Source: a bacterium (GTDB lineage Bacteria; SZUA-79; Acidulodesulfobacterales; Acidulodesulfobacteraceae). Taken from it: 64,000 nucleotides of DNA. Below the pieces are notes generated by a model. The model did no database searches and had not been told where the DNA came from. It worked only from the letters and a program-made list of their open reading frames with translations. Location of the stretch: positions 124,001 to 188,000 of the forward strand of contig JAJYDX010000001.1 of assembly GCA_021777135.1 (NCBI GenBank), given 5' to 3'. Shown one piece after another: positions 14,761 to 62,570 of this stretch (its first letter is position 1; every line of letters starts with the position of its first letter). Position numbers and translations under genes: made by a program.

Positions 14761-15008
14761 GCTTTTTTTATTTTAACTTTTAGCTCATAACTTATGATAT
14801 TATATGGGAGGAGGCAATCTTTTATTAATTAAAATATTGATTTTACTAGAAATAATTTATTGAAATTTTATTGAAATATATTTTAAAATCTGATAATGTT
14901 GATTTGTCTAATTCTATATAAGATTTAAATCATAAAAAAATATAAAAAATCAAAGCAAATTTATTATAAAATTTTAGTATAACTTTTTGTAATTATTATA
15001 CTATTTGA

Positions 15009-15030
15009 GTTATCAACAATTGTTGATAAC
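15009..15030. promoter_or_regulatory. Palindrome with two inverted DnaA-box-like sites upstream of dnaA
   Basis: A perfect 11+11 palindrome contains TTATCAACA (15010-15018) and its inverse TGTTGATAA (15021-15029). Each differs from the DnaA box TTATCCACA at one position. It lies 62 bp before the dnaA start and just downstream of a TATACT -10-like element, which suits DnaA autoregulation or origin function. Confidence 0.6.
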
Positions 15031-15091
15031 TTTGTTTAATTTTAATATCCCATCTTGCAATAAAAATATAAATTTCAAACTTATATATTTT

Positions 15092-39393: not shown

Positions 39394-41781
39394 ATGACAG
39401 CAAACAATAGAACGTATAATAAGAAAGATAATAAAAATAAACCAAAAAAAAATAAACATAAATTATTCAAATTAATTTTTGCCGGTCTTTTTATATTAAT
39501 TTTTGCCCCGATAGTAATTTTTGTAATATTATACTTTCTTCTTGCTTCTTCCGTTCCAAATATAGTTTCACTTAAAGACTACCACCCAAAGGAAGTTAAT
39601 TACGTTTATTCGTCCAGCGGTAAATTAGTTGGTTATCTTGGGTCCGTCAACAGGGAGGTGGTTCCATTTTCGGATATCCCGCTGCAGGTGAGAGAAGCGT
39701 TCTTAGCGGCGGAAGATAAAAATTTTTATAATCAAGGCCCGCTTGACTATAAAGCTATAGCAAGAGCCTTTATTGTCAACCTTATGTCTGGACACATCGT
39801 TGAAGGCGGCTCGACGATAACCCAACAGGTGGCAAAAACACTTCTGGTGCCTTATGAAAGAACCTATATATGGAAACTGCGCGAAGCTATTTTAGCCTAC
39901 AGGGTTGCTGATAATTTATCTAAAAACGATATTTTAGATATTTATCTGAATCAAATTTATCTCGGAAACAATGCATATGGAATACAGGCAGCTTCATTGA
40001 CATATTTCGGGGTTCCCGTTTGGAAATTAAACTTATCTCAGGCCGCAATGCTAGGCGGGCTTCCGCAGGCGCCATCCTTTTTGGACCCGTATATTCATTT
40101 TAAAGACGCAAAAAGAAGGCAGAAATATGTACTTGAACAAATGGCAAACGATGGTTTTATAACAAAAACGCAGGCTAAAACCGCATACGATACAAAGCTT
40201 GTTTTTCATAATTTTTTTAAATATTACGGCGTAGCCCCTTATTATCTTGCCTATATAAAGCAGGATATTATAAATAAATACGGCAAAGCAGTTTACAAAG
40301 AGGGTGGACTCAGGGTATACGCGGCTTTAAGCGCGCGAGCCCAGCGTTACGCACGTCAAGCTGTAAAAAGCGGCTTGACAGAACTTTCCCACAAATACGG
40401 TTATGCCGGACCTATAAAAAAGCTTAATTATCGTGAAATGCTTAATAAAATTAATGATGAAAAAAGCCGTATAAATTATTTATATAAAGACGGTCTTTAT
40501 AAAGGATTTGTTACCGGAACTTCTAAAAATGGGCATAAAGCTTACGTAGCGGTAGGAAAATTCAGGGGAATATTGCCATTATCAAATATGAAGTGGGCTT
40601 CGCATTTTCAGCGCTATGTTTATTACACGTATAGAACTATTAGTGACGTTAATCAGGTTTTAAAGCCGGGATATGAAATATTGGTTAAATTTGACGGTTA
40701 CGACAAAAACGGTACGCCGGTTTTTTCTTTAGAGGAAAAGAATATTATAGAAGGCGCTTTAATTTCTTTAGACCCTAAAAACGGTTTTGTTAAAGCAATG
40801 GTTGGCGGGCATAGCTTTAGTCAAACTCAGTTTAACAGGGCGCTTTACGCAAAAAGGCAGACTGGTTCGGCTTTTAAGCCTATAGTTTACGCAGAGGCAT
40901 TAACCCTTGGATATACCCCATCCTCTATTATTAATAATACTCCTGTAATATATCCTACCGGAGTTCCCGGCAAATATTACAAGCCGCACAACTTTTCACG
41001 CAGATTCACAGGACCAACGACTCTTTTGATAGGACTTGCGCATTCTATAGACGTTGTCGCCGTTAAACTTTTGCAAAAAGTCGGTGTAAATAAAGTAGCA
41101 GATTTGGCTAATGAAATGGGAATACATCATGTTGTAAAAAATTTAACTATGGCACTGGGGTCGTCTAGCGTCAGTCTTATAGATTTAACGGATGCCTACA
41201 CGGCTTTTGCAAACGCTGGAAAAGAATGCAAGCCGGTTTTTATTATTAAGATTTTAACTCCTGGAGGTAAAATCTTATATGGTTATAAGCCGGAATGCAA
41301 ACAGGTTTTATCTCCGCAAGTTGCATACGTTCTGACGAATATGCTTGAAAGAGTTATTACTAACGGAACCGGAGTCACTATTTCCAACATAAGGAAGATT
41401 ACCCCTTACGTAGCCGGGAAAACGGGTTCTTCGAGCCAATACAGGGATGGAATATTCATGGGTTACACTTCTTCATTGGTAACCGGAGTGTGGACGGGTT
41501 TAGACGATTTTCATTCAATGGGCAGATTTATGGTCGGCGCTATCACAGCTGCACCTATATGGGACGCCTATATGTCAAAAGCCCTCAATATTTATCCTCC
41601 CGAAGCATTCGCAATACCTAAAGGAGTTGTTTTTGCAGAAATTAATCCGCAAACCGGTCTCATTGCGGATTCAACCTATAAAGACCCGGTGCTTATGCCT
41701 TATGTTGCCGGAACCGAGCCGACAATCGTTAAAAAACATAAAAAGATTAATAACCCACAGTCTTTCTTTGGATTATTTTAG
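39394..41781 (+). CDS. mrcA: Class A penicillin-binding protein 1A
   Basis: A 795-aa bifunctional peptidoglycan synthase. It has a cytoplasmic Lys-rich N-terminus, one membrane helix (about 28-50) and a transglycosylase domain with the catalytic Glu in AAEDKNFYNQGPLDYKA (about residue 105) and GGSTITQQVAKTL. The transpeptidase domain shows the Ser-x-x-Lys motif RQTGSAFKPIVYAEA (about 490) and KTGSSSQYRDG (about 675). An OB-like insert lies between the two domains (about 290-440). It builds the cell wall on the periplasmic side. Confidence 0.95.
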   Translation: MTANNRTYNKKDNKNKPKKNKHKLFKLIFAGLFILIFAPIVIFVILYFLLASSVPNIVSLKDYHPKEVNYVYSSSGKLVGYLGSVNREVVPFSDIPLQVREAFLAAEDKNFYNQGPLDYKAIARAFIVNLMSGHIVEGGSTITQQVAKTLLVPYERTYIWKLREAILAYRVADNLSKNDILDIYLNQIYLGNNAYGIQAASLTYFGVPVWKLNLSQAAMLGGLPQAPSFLDPYIHFKDAKRRQKYVLEQMANDGFITKTQAKTAYDTKLVFHNFFKYYGVAPYYLAYIKQDIINKYGKAVYKEGGLRVYAALSARAQRYARQAVKSGLTELSHKYGYAGPIKKLNYREMLNKINDEKSRINYLYKDGLYKGFVTGTSKNGHKAYVAVGKFRGILPLSNMKWASHFQRYVYYTYRTISDVNQVLKPGYEILVKFDGYDKNGTPVFSLEEKNIIEGALISLDPKNGFVKAMVGGHSFSQTQFNRALYAKRQTGSAFKPIVYAEALTLGYTPSSIINNTPVIYPTGVPGKYYKPHNFSRRFTGPTTLLIGLAHSIDVVAVKLLQKVGVNKVADLANEMGIHHVVKNLTMALGSSSVSLIDLTDAYTAFANAGKECKPVFIIKILTPGGKILYGYKPECKQVLSPQVAYVLTNMLERVITNGTGVTISNIRKITPYVAGKTGSSSQYRDGIFMGYTSSLVTGVWTGLDDFHSMGRFMVGAITAAPIWDAYMSKALNIYPPEAFAIPKGVVFAEINPQTGLIADSTYKDPVLMPYVAGTEPTIVKKHKKINNPQSFFGLF

Positions 41782-58462: not shown

Positions 58463-58490
58463 TTGACAAAATTTTCACAAATGATATAAA
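58463..58490 (+). promoter_or_regulatory. Sigma70 promoter of cydAB
   Basis: TTGACA (58463-58468) and TATAAA (58485-58490) are separated by 16 bp. A 19-bp operator-like dyad begins 10 bp after the -10, so a repressor bound there would cover the start site. Confidence 0.65.
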
Positions 58491-58518
58491 TAAGATAAAT
58501 AAGATTAAATTAATCTTA
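58491..58518. promoter_or_regulatory. Rrf2/NsrR-like operator before cydA
   Basis: The dyad at 58500-58518 is TAAGATTAA, one central base, then TTAATCTTA, perfect over 9+9 bp. A further half-site TAAGATAAA lies at 58491-58499. The same TAAGAT...ATCTTA design occurs before the Rrf2 gene at 61142-61160. NsrR sites in other bacteria also have AAGAT half-sites. Confidence 0.6.
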
Positions 58519-58607: not shown

Positions 58608-60023
58608 ATGGATAATCTGGCTTTATTATTGGCGCGATTCCAATTTGGAATGACTGCTTTTTTTCATTTTCTTTATCCGCCTTTGACTATAGGTCTTGGG
58701 ACTCTTCTTGTTATAACAGAAGGCATTTACGTTTTTTCTAAAAATCAGGAGTATTTAAGGATTACCCGTTTTTTTGCTAAATTATTCGCTATTAATTTTG
58801 TAGTAGGAGTTGCAACCGGAATCGTTATGGAATTTCAGTTCGGTACCAACTGGTCACAGTATTCTTCTTATGTAGGTGCTATATTTGGAGCGCCTCTCGC
58901 TATAGAAGGACTTTTTGCTTTTTTTATGGAGTCCATTTTCGTAGGCGTTATGCTCCTTGGCTGGAACAGGCTTTCGGCTAAAGCGCACTGGATATCTACA
59001 ATATTTGTAGCCTTAGGTTCGACTTTATCGGCAGTGTGGATTTTAGTGGCAAATTCCTGGATGCAGAGTCCGGCCGGATATAAAATAGGTTCAAACGGGA
59101 TACCCAAAATGACTAATTTTTGGCATGTAGTATTCAATCCTTATTTCCCGTCGGAATTTGTTCACGTTATAGCCGCCGCTTGGGAATATTCGGCTTTCTT
59201 TATGGCGGGCGTAGCGGCATGGTTTTTAATAAAAAACAATAAAGATATGATAATGAGAAAGGCATTAAAAATAGCCGTCATATCCGGTGTAATAGTCGCA
59301 TGCGTTCAAATTATATTAGGCGACATAAGCGCAAGGGAAGTAGTTAAGTACCAGCCTACCAAATTGGCTATGATGGAAGCGCAATGGCATTCTCAAAGGT
59401 ATGCTCCCGAGACGCTTTTTGCCCTTCCGAACAACGCAACAGAATCAAACGGACCGCAAATAGGAATTCCAGGTATGTTAAGTATGCTGGCATATATGAA
59501 TCCAGCGTCAAAAGTTATGGGATTTAACAAATCTATAAGCTATATTAACCATAAATATAACTTGAAATTGACGGCCGCTATGTTTCCTCCAGTTTCGTTG
59601 GTTTTCTGGTCGTTTCATATTATGATGTATTTTGGGTTTTATTTTGTTCTAATTATGATTATTGCACTGTATCTTTTATTTAAAGGCAAATTGTATGAAA
59701 GTCCGAAAATGCTTAAGGTTTTCTGGTTTTCCACTTTTTTGCCTTTAATAGCAATAGAGTTTGGATGGTTTACTACGGAAATAGGACGCCAGCCTTTTAC
59801 AGTTTATGGACTCTTAACTACCGTAAAATCAGTTTCTCCTAACGTCAGCGCGTTAGACGTAGGACTATCCACTTTAATGTTTACTTTGATTTATATTACG
59901 TTGGCTTCTTTTGCGATTTTCTTGTTTAAAAGAGAATTAAAGGAAAGAGCTGGAGGCAAAGACGAGCTTGCCGGCGAATCAAACTCAAAAGCCGATTCAA
60001 ATAATAAGGAGGCTTTATCATGA
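58608..60023 (+). CDS. cydA: Cytochrome bd ubiquinol oxidase subunit I
   Basis: A 471-aa membrane subunit that binds hemes b558, b595 and d. It has LARFQFGMTAFFHFLYPPLTIGLG with the axial His at the start, and helices such as MEFQFGTNWSQYSSYVGAIFGAPLAIEGLFAFFMES and WFTTEIGRQPFTVYGLLTT. Length is near that of short Q-loop forms. It reduces oxygen with quinol electrons and also gives tolerance to NO. It overlaps cydB by 4 bp. A Gly/Glu/Ser/Lys-rich C-terminal tail follows the last helix. Confidence 0.97.
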   Translation: MDNLALLLARFQFGMTAFFHFLYPPLTIGLGTLLVITEGIYVFSKNQEYLRITRFFAKLFAINFVVGVATGIVMEFQFGTNWSQYSSYVGAIFGAPLAIEGLFAFFMESIFVGVMLLGWNRLSAKAHWISTIFVALGSTLSAVWILVANSWMQSPAGYKIGSNGIPKMTNFWHVVFNPYFPSEFVHVIAAAWEYSAFFMAGVAAWFLIKNNKDMIMRKALKIAVISGVIVACVQIILGDISAREVVKYQPTKLAMMEAQWHSQRYAPETLFALPNNATESNGPQIGIPGMLSMLAYMNPASKVMGFNKSISYINHKYNLKLTAAMFPPVSLVFWSFHIMMYFGFYFVLIMIIALYLLFKGKLYESPKMLKVFWFSTFLPLIAIEFGWFTTEIGRQPFTVYGLLTTVKSVSPNVSALDVGLSTLMFTLIYITLASFAIFLFKRELKERAGGKDELAGESNSKADSNNKEALS

Positions 60024-61036
60024 ATTTAAATATATTGTGGTTTATTCTTGTAGCTGTTCTTATTTTTGGATGGTCGGTTATGGACGGTTTTGATTACGGC
60101 GTAGGCGGATTATTAAATTTTATAGCTAAAAACGACGAAGAAAAAAGGTATGTAATGAATGCAATCGGTCCAGTTTGGGAGGGAAATCAGGTCTGGCTCA
60201 TACTTGGAGGCGGCGCCGTGTTTGCAGCGTTTCCTTTAGTTTATGCGTCGATTTTCAGCGGATTTTATCTTGCAATGATGCTGGTAGTCTGGCTGATAAT
60301 ATTTAGGGCGGTGTCATTTGAATTTAGAAGTAAAGTCGAAAGTTTAGGCTGGAGAAAATTTTGGGATGCAGATATTACCGTTACAGGTCTTGGTATTGCA
60401 CTTTTGCTCGGCGTTGCAATCGCAAATGTATTAATGGGGATTCCGCTTAATAAAGACCATGTGGATTATCAGTCTTTGTTTAGCCTGTTAAATATTTTCG
60501 GATTAGCCGGAGGACTTATATCGCTCTCAATGTTTTTAATGCACGGCTCAGCTTATTTGATTATGAAAACAGAAGGGGAAGTCCAGCAAAGGGCAAGGGT
60601 TTTTACAAAACGTTTTGCTGTGGCATATATAGTCTTTACCTTGCTGTTTTTACTGATTTCTCCAATATTTGCGCCGAGGCTTCTAAACAATAGTCTCGGT
60701 ATTATAGGAGACATAGTGCCAGTTATAATGCTTATAGGCGGGATAGGCGTTATTCTTTCAGCAGGCTCTGCAAGCGACATTAAGCCGTTCGCCTATTCCA
60801 TAATAGGTATTCTGGGGGCGGTAGCAAGTCTCGCTGTTGGAATATTTCCCGATATTGTTCCTTCATCTATTAACCCAAAGTACAGTCTTAATATATATAA
60901 TTCAGCTTCTAATCATCTTACGCTTTTAGTTATGCTGATAGCTACGCTTATAGGTTTGCCGCTTGTTTTAATATATGCTTTTTATGCTTATAAAAAGTTT
61001 GGATTAAAGGTAAAAATTGACGACAGCAGTTATTAG
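60020..61036 (+). CDS. cydB: Cytochrome bd ubiquinol oxidase subunit II
   Basis: A 338-aa membrane subunit with eight or nine helices that pairs with CydA. Diagnostic stretches are VMDGFDYGVGGLLNFIAKNDEEKRYVMNAIGPVWEGNQVWLILGGGAVFAAFPLVYA. It overlaps cydA by 4 bp. A rho-independent terminator follows at 61070-61120, so cydAB is a two-gene unit. Confidence 0.97.
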   Translation: MNLNILWFILVAVLIFGWSVMDGFDYGVGGLLNFIAKNDEEKRYVMNAIGPVWEGNQVWLILGGGAVFAAFPLVYASIFSGFYLAMMLVVWLIIFRAVSFEFRSKVESLGWRKFWDADITVTGLGIALLLGVAIANVLMGIPLNKDHVDYQSLFSLLNIFGLAGGLISLSMFLMHGSAYLIMKTEGEVQQRARVFTKRFAVAYIVFTLLFLLISPIFAPRLLNNSLGIIGDIVPVIMLIGGIGVILSAGSASDIKPFAYSIIGILGAVASLAVGIFPDIVPSSINPKYSLNIYNSASNHLTLLVMLIATLIGLPLVLIYAFYAYKKFGLKVKIDDSSY

Positions 61037-61069
61037 TCAATTTTTCTATTTTATTTTAACCTTAATCTG

Positions 61070-61120
61070 ATGCCCTATAATTAAATTAACCCCCCTTAAT
61101 TTTTTATAGGGCATTTTTTT
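61070..61120 (+). terminator. Rho-independent terminator after cydB
   Basis: The left arm ATGCCCTATAA (61070-61080) pairs with TTATAGGGCAT (61104-61114), and the inner AATTAA/TTAATT can extend the stem around a C-rich loop. A T-run (61114-61120) follows. It separates cydAB from the Rrf2-type gene. Confidence 0.8.
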
Positions 61121-61141
61121 GCCGTATAATATATAATAATA

Positions 61142-61160
61142 TAAGATAAATTTTATCTTA
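61142..61160. promoter_or_regulatory. Rrf2/NsrR-like operator before the Rrf2 gene
   Basis: A 19-bp dyad with TAAGATAAA, one central base, then TTTATCTTA, perfect over 9+9 bp. It overlaps the promoter zone and lies 16 bp before the GTG start of the Rrf2-family gene, as expected for autoregulation. It shares the half-site design with the cydA dyad. Confidence 0.65.
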
Positions 61161-61175: not shown

Positions 61176-61598
61176 GTGAATATTTCAAAAGCCAGCGATT
61201 ATGCTATAAGGGGGCTGGTATATATGGCAAAAAAACCTGCGGGGACGGTATGTTTCGTAAAAGATATAGCTAAAAACACCAACTCTCCGTCCTCTTTTAT
61301 GTCTAAGATATTTCAGACTTTAGCAAAAAGCGGTCTTGTACATTCTTTTATCGGAACCAAAGGCGGATTTACCTTTAATGCGCAGCCAGAAAATATTACA
61401 ATAAAAATGATAGTAGAAATTATAGACGGACCTATAGTTCTAAACAGATGCGTAGTTGATAAAAGTTCATGTCAAAACTCTGGTAATTGCGACGTGCATT
61501 TTATGTGGCTTGATATTCAAAAAATGCTGACTAAAGCGCTAAGTTCATATTCTATTGCAGATTTTGCAAATAATACTTTCAAAAATAAATTATCGTAA
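61176..61598 (+). CDS. nsrR: Rrf2-family NsrR-type regulator
   Basis: A 140-aa transcription factor with an N-terminal winged helix (MNISKASDYAIRGLVYMAKKPAGTV, SSFMSKIFQTLAKSGLVHSFIGTKGGF) and three cysteines, Cys92, Cys99 and Cys105 (C-x6-C-x5-C), that would hold an Fe-S cluster. This spacing fits the NO sensor NsrR. It is followed on the other strand by RIC and preceded by cydAB, genes typical of NO defence. The GTG start at 61176 follows AGGGG with a long 8-10 bp spacing. The exact ligand, NO or iron-sulfur status, is inferred. Confidence 0.82.
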   Translation: MNISKASDYAIRGLVYMAKKPAGTVCFVKDIAKNTNSPSSFMSKIFQTLAKSGLVHSFIGTKGGFTFNAQPENITIKMIVEIIDGPIVLNRCVVDKSSCQNSGNCDVHFMWLDIQKMLTKALSSYSIADFANNTFKNKLS

Positions 61599-62305: not shown

Positions 62306-62400
62306 AGCAGTTTCTCCTTTAATATTATTAATTTAATTTTAAATTAGCAGTTAAATTTTTAACTTTAATTGTATTATCCTAAATTTTTAACTTTTAATAT

Positions 62401-62417
62401 ATGATTTTTGTCACATT
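62401..62417 (-). promoter_or_regulatory. CRP/FNR-family binding site facing the RIC gene
   Basis: Read on the minus strand this is TGTGA-N6-TCATA, close to the CRP/HcpR type TGTGA-N6-TCACA. The arm (62401-62417) is the inverse of the site at 62458-62474 with 16 of 17 bases matching. It lies about 100 bp before the RIC start. Confidence 0.55.
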
Positions 62418-62457: not shown

Positions 62458-62474
62458 AATGTGACAAAAGTCAT
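62458..62474 (+). promoter_or_regulatory. CRP/FNR-family binding site facing cytochrome c/nor
   Basis: TGTGA-N6-TCATA lies about 100 bp before the cytochrome c start. With the opposite copy at 62401-62417, separated by 40 bp, it forms an inverted pair in the divergent region. HcpR and related regulators of NO genes in anaerobes use similar sites, so such a regulator is a good candidate; none is encoded here. Confidence 0.55.
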
Positions 62475-62570
62475 AACGTTTATTTTTTTATTTTTTTATA
62501 ATTTAATAAACTCAAATTAATTTGGATTTATAACGGAGTTTTATTAAATTTATTAAATAATATTATTATT

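Follow-up and report, generated by a model that had tools for sequence, protein, structure and literature searches.

A putative Rrf2-type operator at the promoters of terminal oxidase genes in Acidulodesulfobacteraceae

Fe-S cluster regulators of the Rrf2 family are well documented (PMC9338935), and most points of comparison for the locus described here come from that family. In Streptomyces NsrR, Asp8 and three cysteines hold a [4Fe-4S] cluster, and Arg12 links the cluster to the DNA-binding part of the protein (PMC5411485). The published NsrR site is a 19-bp palindrome with G4 and C16 (PMC1274295), its half-site is gATGyAT, and its targets are NO-detoxification genes. IscR, another member with three cysteines, has a histidine two residues after the third of them and is linked to Fe-S assembly genes. 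A connection between the family and terminal oxidases has also been hypothesised: CtaR of Acidithiobacillus ferrooxidans, the product of an Rrf2-family gene, was proposed to regulate an aa3 oxidase biogenesis cluster and is said to adjoin cbb3 biogenesis genes in T. denitrificans. CtaR is described as iron-responsive, and the passages cited give no operator (PMC2754497). Finally, the NO regulation attributed to HcpR and other CRP-FNR-type proteins uses the consensus wTGTGAn6TCACAw (PMC1274295) and concerns a different motif and different genes from those considered below.

Here, we describe two matching inverted repeats that flank the cytochrome bd oxidase genes cydAB in the window, that is, the whole 64,000-nucleotide stretch that was analysed. 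These dyads probably mark the binding sequence of an Rrf2 repressor that would control the bd oxidase genes. The kind of regulator is a known one, while the operator sequence itself is probably new; at the level of search results, the open-access literature yielded neither an Rrf2 operator of this sequence nor an oxidase-only Rrf2 regulon.

An Rrf2-family gene and two dyads beside cydAB

The candidate regulator is the 140-residue product of a gene (rrf2, 61176 to 61598, plus strand) that belongs to the Rrf2 superfamily (TIGR00738, 108.3 bits, cut-off 73.3; PF02082, 110.6 bits, cut-off 30) and reaches the cut-off of no equivalog model. The nearest was the SUF regulator (TIGR02944, 83.2 against 110.65), and the others were IscR (TIGR02010, 70.5 against 207.55; NF008110, 52.2 against 275), CymR (56.2 against 195), RirA (NF008886, 56 against 193) and NsrR (NF008240, 50.7 against 182), so the label "NsrR-type" given to the gene in an earlier sequence-only reading finds no support as a family assignment. 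The nearest PDB chains by sequence are those of IscR and CymR, with NsrR weaker. The three cysteines to which the same reading drew attention are conserved in all 16 aligned orthologs, in which Asp8, Arg12 and the pattern C-X6-C-X5-C-X2-H are invariant. Asp8 is present in E. coli NsrR and not in E. coli IscR, which has Arg at position 8; the histidine after the third cysteine is shared with IscR, and the cysteine spacing differs from that of C93, C99 and C105 in NsrR. Judging by its residues, the protein resembles NsrR at a putative cluster site, which does not make it an NsrR. The IscR-type linkage to Fe-S assembly genes is likewise missing, the neighbours of rrf2 being cydAB and ric. In one relative (G012), two other Rrf2 genes adjoin cysteine-desulfurase-like genes (names from reading translations).

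The locus begins downstream of polA with a presumed cydA promoter, formed by a −35 box TTGACA (58463 to 58468, plus strand) that is found in 14 of 14 cydA promoters of the genus and a −10 box TATAAA (58485 to 58490, plus strand) that lies 16 bp further on, in a conserved region; a consensus promoter scan that requires a final T did not list the latter. Next come TAAGATAAA (58491 to 58499, plus strand), a direct repeat of the left half-site that abuts the first dyad, and the dyad itself, TAAGATTAAATTAATCTTA (58500 to 58518). They are followed on the plus strand by cydA, for subunit I of cytochrome bd oxidase (58608 to 60023; PF01654, 520.8 bits), cydB, for subunit II (60020 to 61036; PF02322, 324.2 bits; TIGR00203, 279.4 bits, above its cut-off), a long hairpin with a six-C loop and then a T run (61069 to 61115; −19 kcal/mol, z −5.4), which is presumably the terminator between cydB and rrf2, and finally rrf2. 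The hairpin is a single copy in its own genome and was not picked up by a simple terminator scan. It is recognisable in most relatives, in several genera, with a loop that varies, for instance in G019; in G003 and G010 only its right arm lies within the 150 bp stretch compared, and in G022, where rrf2 is relocated, there is none 5′ of the gene.

Both dyads are perfect, with two nine-base arms around a single central base, exactly as the sequence-only reading gave them in sequence and coordinates, and the shared site is indeed found before cydAB and before the regulator gene. The first was thought to overlap the start of cydAB; in fact, it ends 89 bp 5′ of the cydA ATG (58608) and sits at the presumed transcription start, just 3′ of the −10 box. 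The second (61142 to 61160) ends 15 bp 5′ of the GTG of rrf2 (61176), downstream of a presumed −10 box, TATAAT (61125 to 61130, plus strand), which matches 10 of 12 positions in the consensus scan together with a −35-like TTTATA (61103 to 61108); the scanned region holds six promoter-like sites, no excess over a shuffle mean of 9.9. At both promoters, the dyad follows the presumed −10 box after 9 to 11 bp, so that a protein bound to the dyad would cover the transcription start, a geometry that suggests a repressor.

The exact motif is not scattered at random: TAAGATNAANTTNATCTTA without mismatches occurs only at these two dyads, both in the window and in the whole genome assembly (G000; 2,123,485 bp in 92 contigs). 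Relaxed searches come closer to background, with four places in the window against a shuffle mean of 3.2 when three mismatches are allowed, and seven in the genome against three for a reversed control when two are allowed. We treated the five further genomic matches as chance after reading their context, as none looked like an oxidase or NO target. They lie at a nuoL/nuoM-like gene boundary, 5′ of a kinase-like gene, where a recA-like gene ends, 5′ of a pilT-like one, between two divergent genes, and inside a ribonucleotide-reductase-like gene (gene names from reading translations).

Another symmetrical element of the window is a perfect 12+12 palindrome at 15008 to 15031 that contains two inverted DnaA-box-like sequences, just 5′ of a dnaA-like gene and with rnpA/yidC-like genes on its other side (names from reading translations); this may be a replication origin region.

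Oxidase promoters across the family

In the genus, the site before cydA is part of a larger conserved unit. A composite element made up of the −35 box, the −10 box, the half-site repeat (TA(A/T)GA(T/C)AAA) and the dyad is present in 14 of 14 cydA promoters, in every one of which 37 bp separate the first base of the −35 box from the start of the dyad; the distance between dyad and cydA ATG ranges among relatives from about 108 to 344 bp. Across 13 of these promoters (G009 left out), mean pairwise identity is 0.86 for the 56-bp element and 0.83 for the dyad alone, and it reaches 0.92 in the −10 region (18 to 36 after the −35 start) against 0.61 to 0.71 in four flanking blocks. In G018, from another genus, the element lies directly 3′ of polA and is followed by an additional 152-aa ORF and then by cydAB. 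This ORF (L087:2340-2798), placed between operator and cydA, has no Pfam or NCBIfam match and possibly belongs to the same operon. In G019, G020, G022 and G045, TAAGATATAATTACTCTTA or a near variant (10 to 11 of 12 letters) is found nearer cydA, not as the composite element. Some relatives (L041, L042, L052, L085, L086, L088) also have a promoter-like element nearer cydA in which a dyad of the type AAGATATAnTTA(C/G)TCTT, or similar, lies within a larger inverted repeat; this type was not seen in the window genome.

When 15 cydA, 3 ccoN and 12 rrf2 sites were collected (30 sites, 19 of them distinct), A2, G4, A5, A8, T15 and C16 were invariant, which is partly built in because the sites were chosen by similarity. 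Eight of them have G3, with the matching C17 in four (three cydA, one ccoN) and not in the other four. Scoring by the 12 outer letters alone is a poor guide: the cydA sites of G002, G014, G015 and G004 score 9 of 12, a value reached by 102 to 132 of 200 shuffles, and that of G005 scores 10, reached by 20 of 200. As this scoring misses four cydA sites, position and the wider element were used for recognition.

Exact half-sites, TAAGAT-N7-ATCTTA, occur at 11 places in the 16 genomes of the genus, against three for the reversed control, and ten of the 11 precede cydA (seven), rrf2 (two) or ccoN (one). The one found elsewhere (L084, G012:C92:1771-1789) lies on a contig that, judged by eye, has virus-like ORFs; the one ORF of this contig that was searched had no Pfam match. 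The same search of further family genomes placed one exact half-site at the G018 cydA operon and four away from these genes (one in G019, one in G020 and two in G023). In 30 family genomes the composite pattern matches at 44 places, 18 of them with at most one mismatch, and all 18 are before oxidase genes, 15 before cydA and three before ccoN (G012, G019 and G022), with none elsewhere; since the pattern was built from these sites, the informative part is the absence elsewhere. There remain 26 matches, of which 24 have three mismatches and the other two have two, against 23 for the reversed control.

We set aside two kinds of weaker match. One, at G005:C64:358, lies 5′ of a kdpF/kdpA-like pair and has no −35 element, and we treated it as chance. 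The others come from a looser two-mismatch search, which proved too noisy as evidence of targets: among the matches listed there are many in each of the 16 genus genomes, and L092, L094 and L101 are all inside ORFs. Again among the matches listed, G014 stands out: its two strands give 29 and 26 matches where the reversed control gives 5 and 2, and no other genus genome shows so strong an excess.

A search of 25 family genomes found ccoN, for a cbb3-type oxidase, in three, and each of these three has the site upstream of it; in the ccoN promoter of G019 the dyad is also 37 bp from the −35 box. The cbb3-type products of G012 score below the cut-off of TIGR00780 (280.2 bits against 583) and above those of COX1 (PF00115, 274.8) and FixO (PF02433, 124.9), and identity to the CcoN of G012 is 92% for the G022 protein and 87% for the G019 protein. 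The window genome lacks any match to this ccoN. Thus, with the dyad in both bd and cbb3-type promoters, the putative operator precedes two unrelated kinds of oxidase.

Nitric oxide genes and the likely signal

Directly after rrf2 lie ric, on the minus strand, and cytochrome c and norB-like genes, on the plus strand. Between them are two sites (62399 to 62416 and 62459 to 62476) one mismatch away from the HcpR consensus, and these are the only matches in the window when one mismatch is allowed (shuffles average 0.31, and two are reached in 5 of 100). By eye, the pair is kept in six of six ric-cytochrome c stretches, and the ric-side copy in three of four stretches that contain ric only, the fourth (G009) having no copy in 299 bp. 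Conversely, none of the ten ric-cytochrome c or ric-side stretches contains a TAAGAT dyad with at least 10 of 12 letters. In the window genome, TGTGACAAAANTCATA with at most one mismatch is found at four places, namely the two intergenic sites, a position before a CBS-domain/HPP membrane-protein pair, and another before a 307-aa ORF without a family match. With conserved HcpR-like sites of their own and no dyad, the NO genes appear to have a separate circuit, probably one in which HcpR/CRP-FNR-type regulation acts on the ric and cytochrome c/norB side. For ric and the cytochrome c/norB-like genes, a clustering of matches upstream of NO genes was not borne out, the strong ones being at oxidase promoters and none at the ric side.

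These observations bear on the most serious competitor of an oxygen signal, in which the operator and the repressor are the same and the signal is NO, the protein being an NsrR-like sensor that derepresses an NO-tolerant bd oxidase. We consider this version unlikely. It would suit the position of ric and a norB-like gene directly downstream, but all ten ric-side stretches have the conserved TGTGAC-type site instead of the dyad, this type of site is also found 5′ of the CBS/HPP gene pair elsewhere in the genome, and the lone match to TAAGATNAANTTNATCTTA before ric (62323 to 62341), with three mismatches, is at chance level. The 19-bp frame with G4 and C16 does recall the published NsrR motif (PMC1274295), but length and these two positions are all that is shared: the half-site here is TAAGAT, and gATGyAT-N5-ATrCATc has ten chance-level matches within three mismatches in the window, the last at 41602 to 41620, and none from there to 64000. 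The remark that the site departs from the classical NsrR box thus holds. Similarly, although Asp8, Arg12 and the three cysteines are those of Streptomyces NsrR (PMC5411485), the protein falls far short of the NsrR model, and dyads of this kind precede cbb3-type oxidase genes in three relatives, rather than NO-detoxification genes. Of the NO- or Fe-S-responsive loop put forward in the sequence-only reading, the ligand residues are conserved and the link to NO is weakened.

An oxygen or redox signal fits better. Oxygen is what bd and cbb3-type oxidases have in common, and the lineage, if its match to Acidulodesulfobacterales is correct, has been described as facultatively anaerobic, four of four MAGs having cydAB (PMC6776010). 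Hence, oxygen or redox state would be the most likely signal, with NO as its main rival.

Site, regulator and proposed circuit

If the neighbouring Rrf2 protein binds the dyads as its operators, site and gene should be found together, and this is largely the case. Close orthologs occur in 18 family genomes, 14 of the genus and G018, G019, G020 and G022 (those of G008 and G020 are fragments), and all 18 have cydA, in G008 as a 31-residue fragment. On the other hand, in six of six genomes with cydA and without a close ortholog (G016, G021, G023, G042, G043 and G044, all from one genus), there is no site with at least 10 of 12 letters in the 600 to 800 bp upstream, and nowhere in these genomes does the composite pattern match with fewer than two mismatches. 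G007, with neither cydA nor ortholog, has no composite match better than three mismatches. In G022, rrf2 is upstream of cydAB, so the pairing outlives rearrangement. Nevertheless, given shared ancestry and the confinement of the six site-less genomes to one genus, as few as one or two events may account for the co-occurrence.

The site before rrf2 itself has a narrower distribution. Of the 13 genus genomes in which rrf2 and its upstream region are intact, 12 carry the dyad at position −34 relative to the start and match it in 10 to 12 of 12 letters; scores of 10, as in G001, G003 and G010, arose in 5, 7 and 11 of 200 shuffles, respectively. It is degenerate in G005 and absent upstream of rrf2 in G018, G019, G020 and G022. 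Autoregulation would therefore be at most a genus-level feature, and the idea of a self-site holds in this restricted form; relatives that keep the regulator do keep the cydA site, as conservation of the dyads would lead one to expect, and it is only the rrf2 site that is lost outside the genus. G015 also contains a second rrf2 copy (L075, G015:C42:1500-9500), truncated at its N-terminus, 3′ of polA, with cydAB missing and no dyad upstream. As this MAG has an intact locus as well, the truncated copy may come from another strain or be a decayed locus.

A different possibility is that the dyads serve another regulator, for example, one of the Fur/PerR type, and that rrf2 is merely a co-regulated neighbour. 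A 9-1-9 dyad is similar in length to Fur boxes, and two genomes have the site with no close Rrf2 ortholog found: G012, where it precedes ccoN and no cydA was found either (91% complete), and G045, with an 11/12 site before cydA (78% complete). Otherwise, however, site and ortholog are present or absent together, no match with at most one mismatch lies away from oxidases in 30 genomes, and the outer arms are the most constant part while the centre varies (partly built in, as sites were picked by their arms), all of which makes us think this alternative quite improbable, even more so than an NO signal. Chance likeness between two AT-rich dyads is scarcely credible: 9-1-9 dyads do arise about once per shuffled window (mean 0.995, against four in the window), but none of 200 dinucleotide-preserving shuffles gave two dyads whose arms agree in 8 or more of 9 letters, and conservation of position and sequence across the 14 genus cydA promoters and G018 contradicts it.

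On balance, we favour, with some reservation, the reading that the adjacent Rrf2 protein uses the dyads as its operators and is a repressor with an Fe-S cluster, devoted to terminal oxidases and released by oxygen. When oxygen is absent, TAAGAT-N7-ATCTTA, just past the −10 box, would be occupied by a cluster-loaded Rrf2 dimer, which would shut off both cydAB and rrf2. Exposure to oxygen or to some related redox stress would then disrupt the cluster and free the DNA, turning on the bd oxidase, and the site 5′ of rrf2 would provide negative feedback. More tentatively, we propose that a lineage-specific branch of Rrf2 proteins may be a dedicated oxygen-sensing terminal-oxidase repressor with a new operator, in which the same promoter-operator module is placed, depending on the relative, before either a bd or a cbb3-type oxidase, apart from the HcpR-like NO circuit.

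If this is true, an uncultivated lineage thought to alternate between anaerobic and oxygen-using metabolism would have a simple, testable oxygen switch, and the control of terminal oxidases, through a defined operator, would be added to the roles of Rrf2 Fe-S regulators. The presence of one promoter-operator module before two unrelated oxidases hints at the purpose of the circuit even without knowledge of the ligand.
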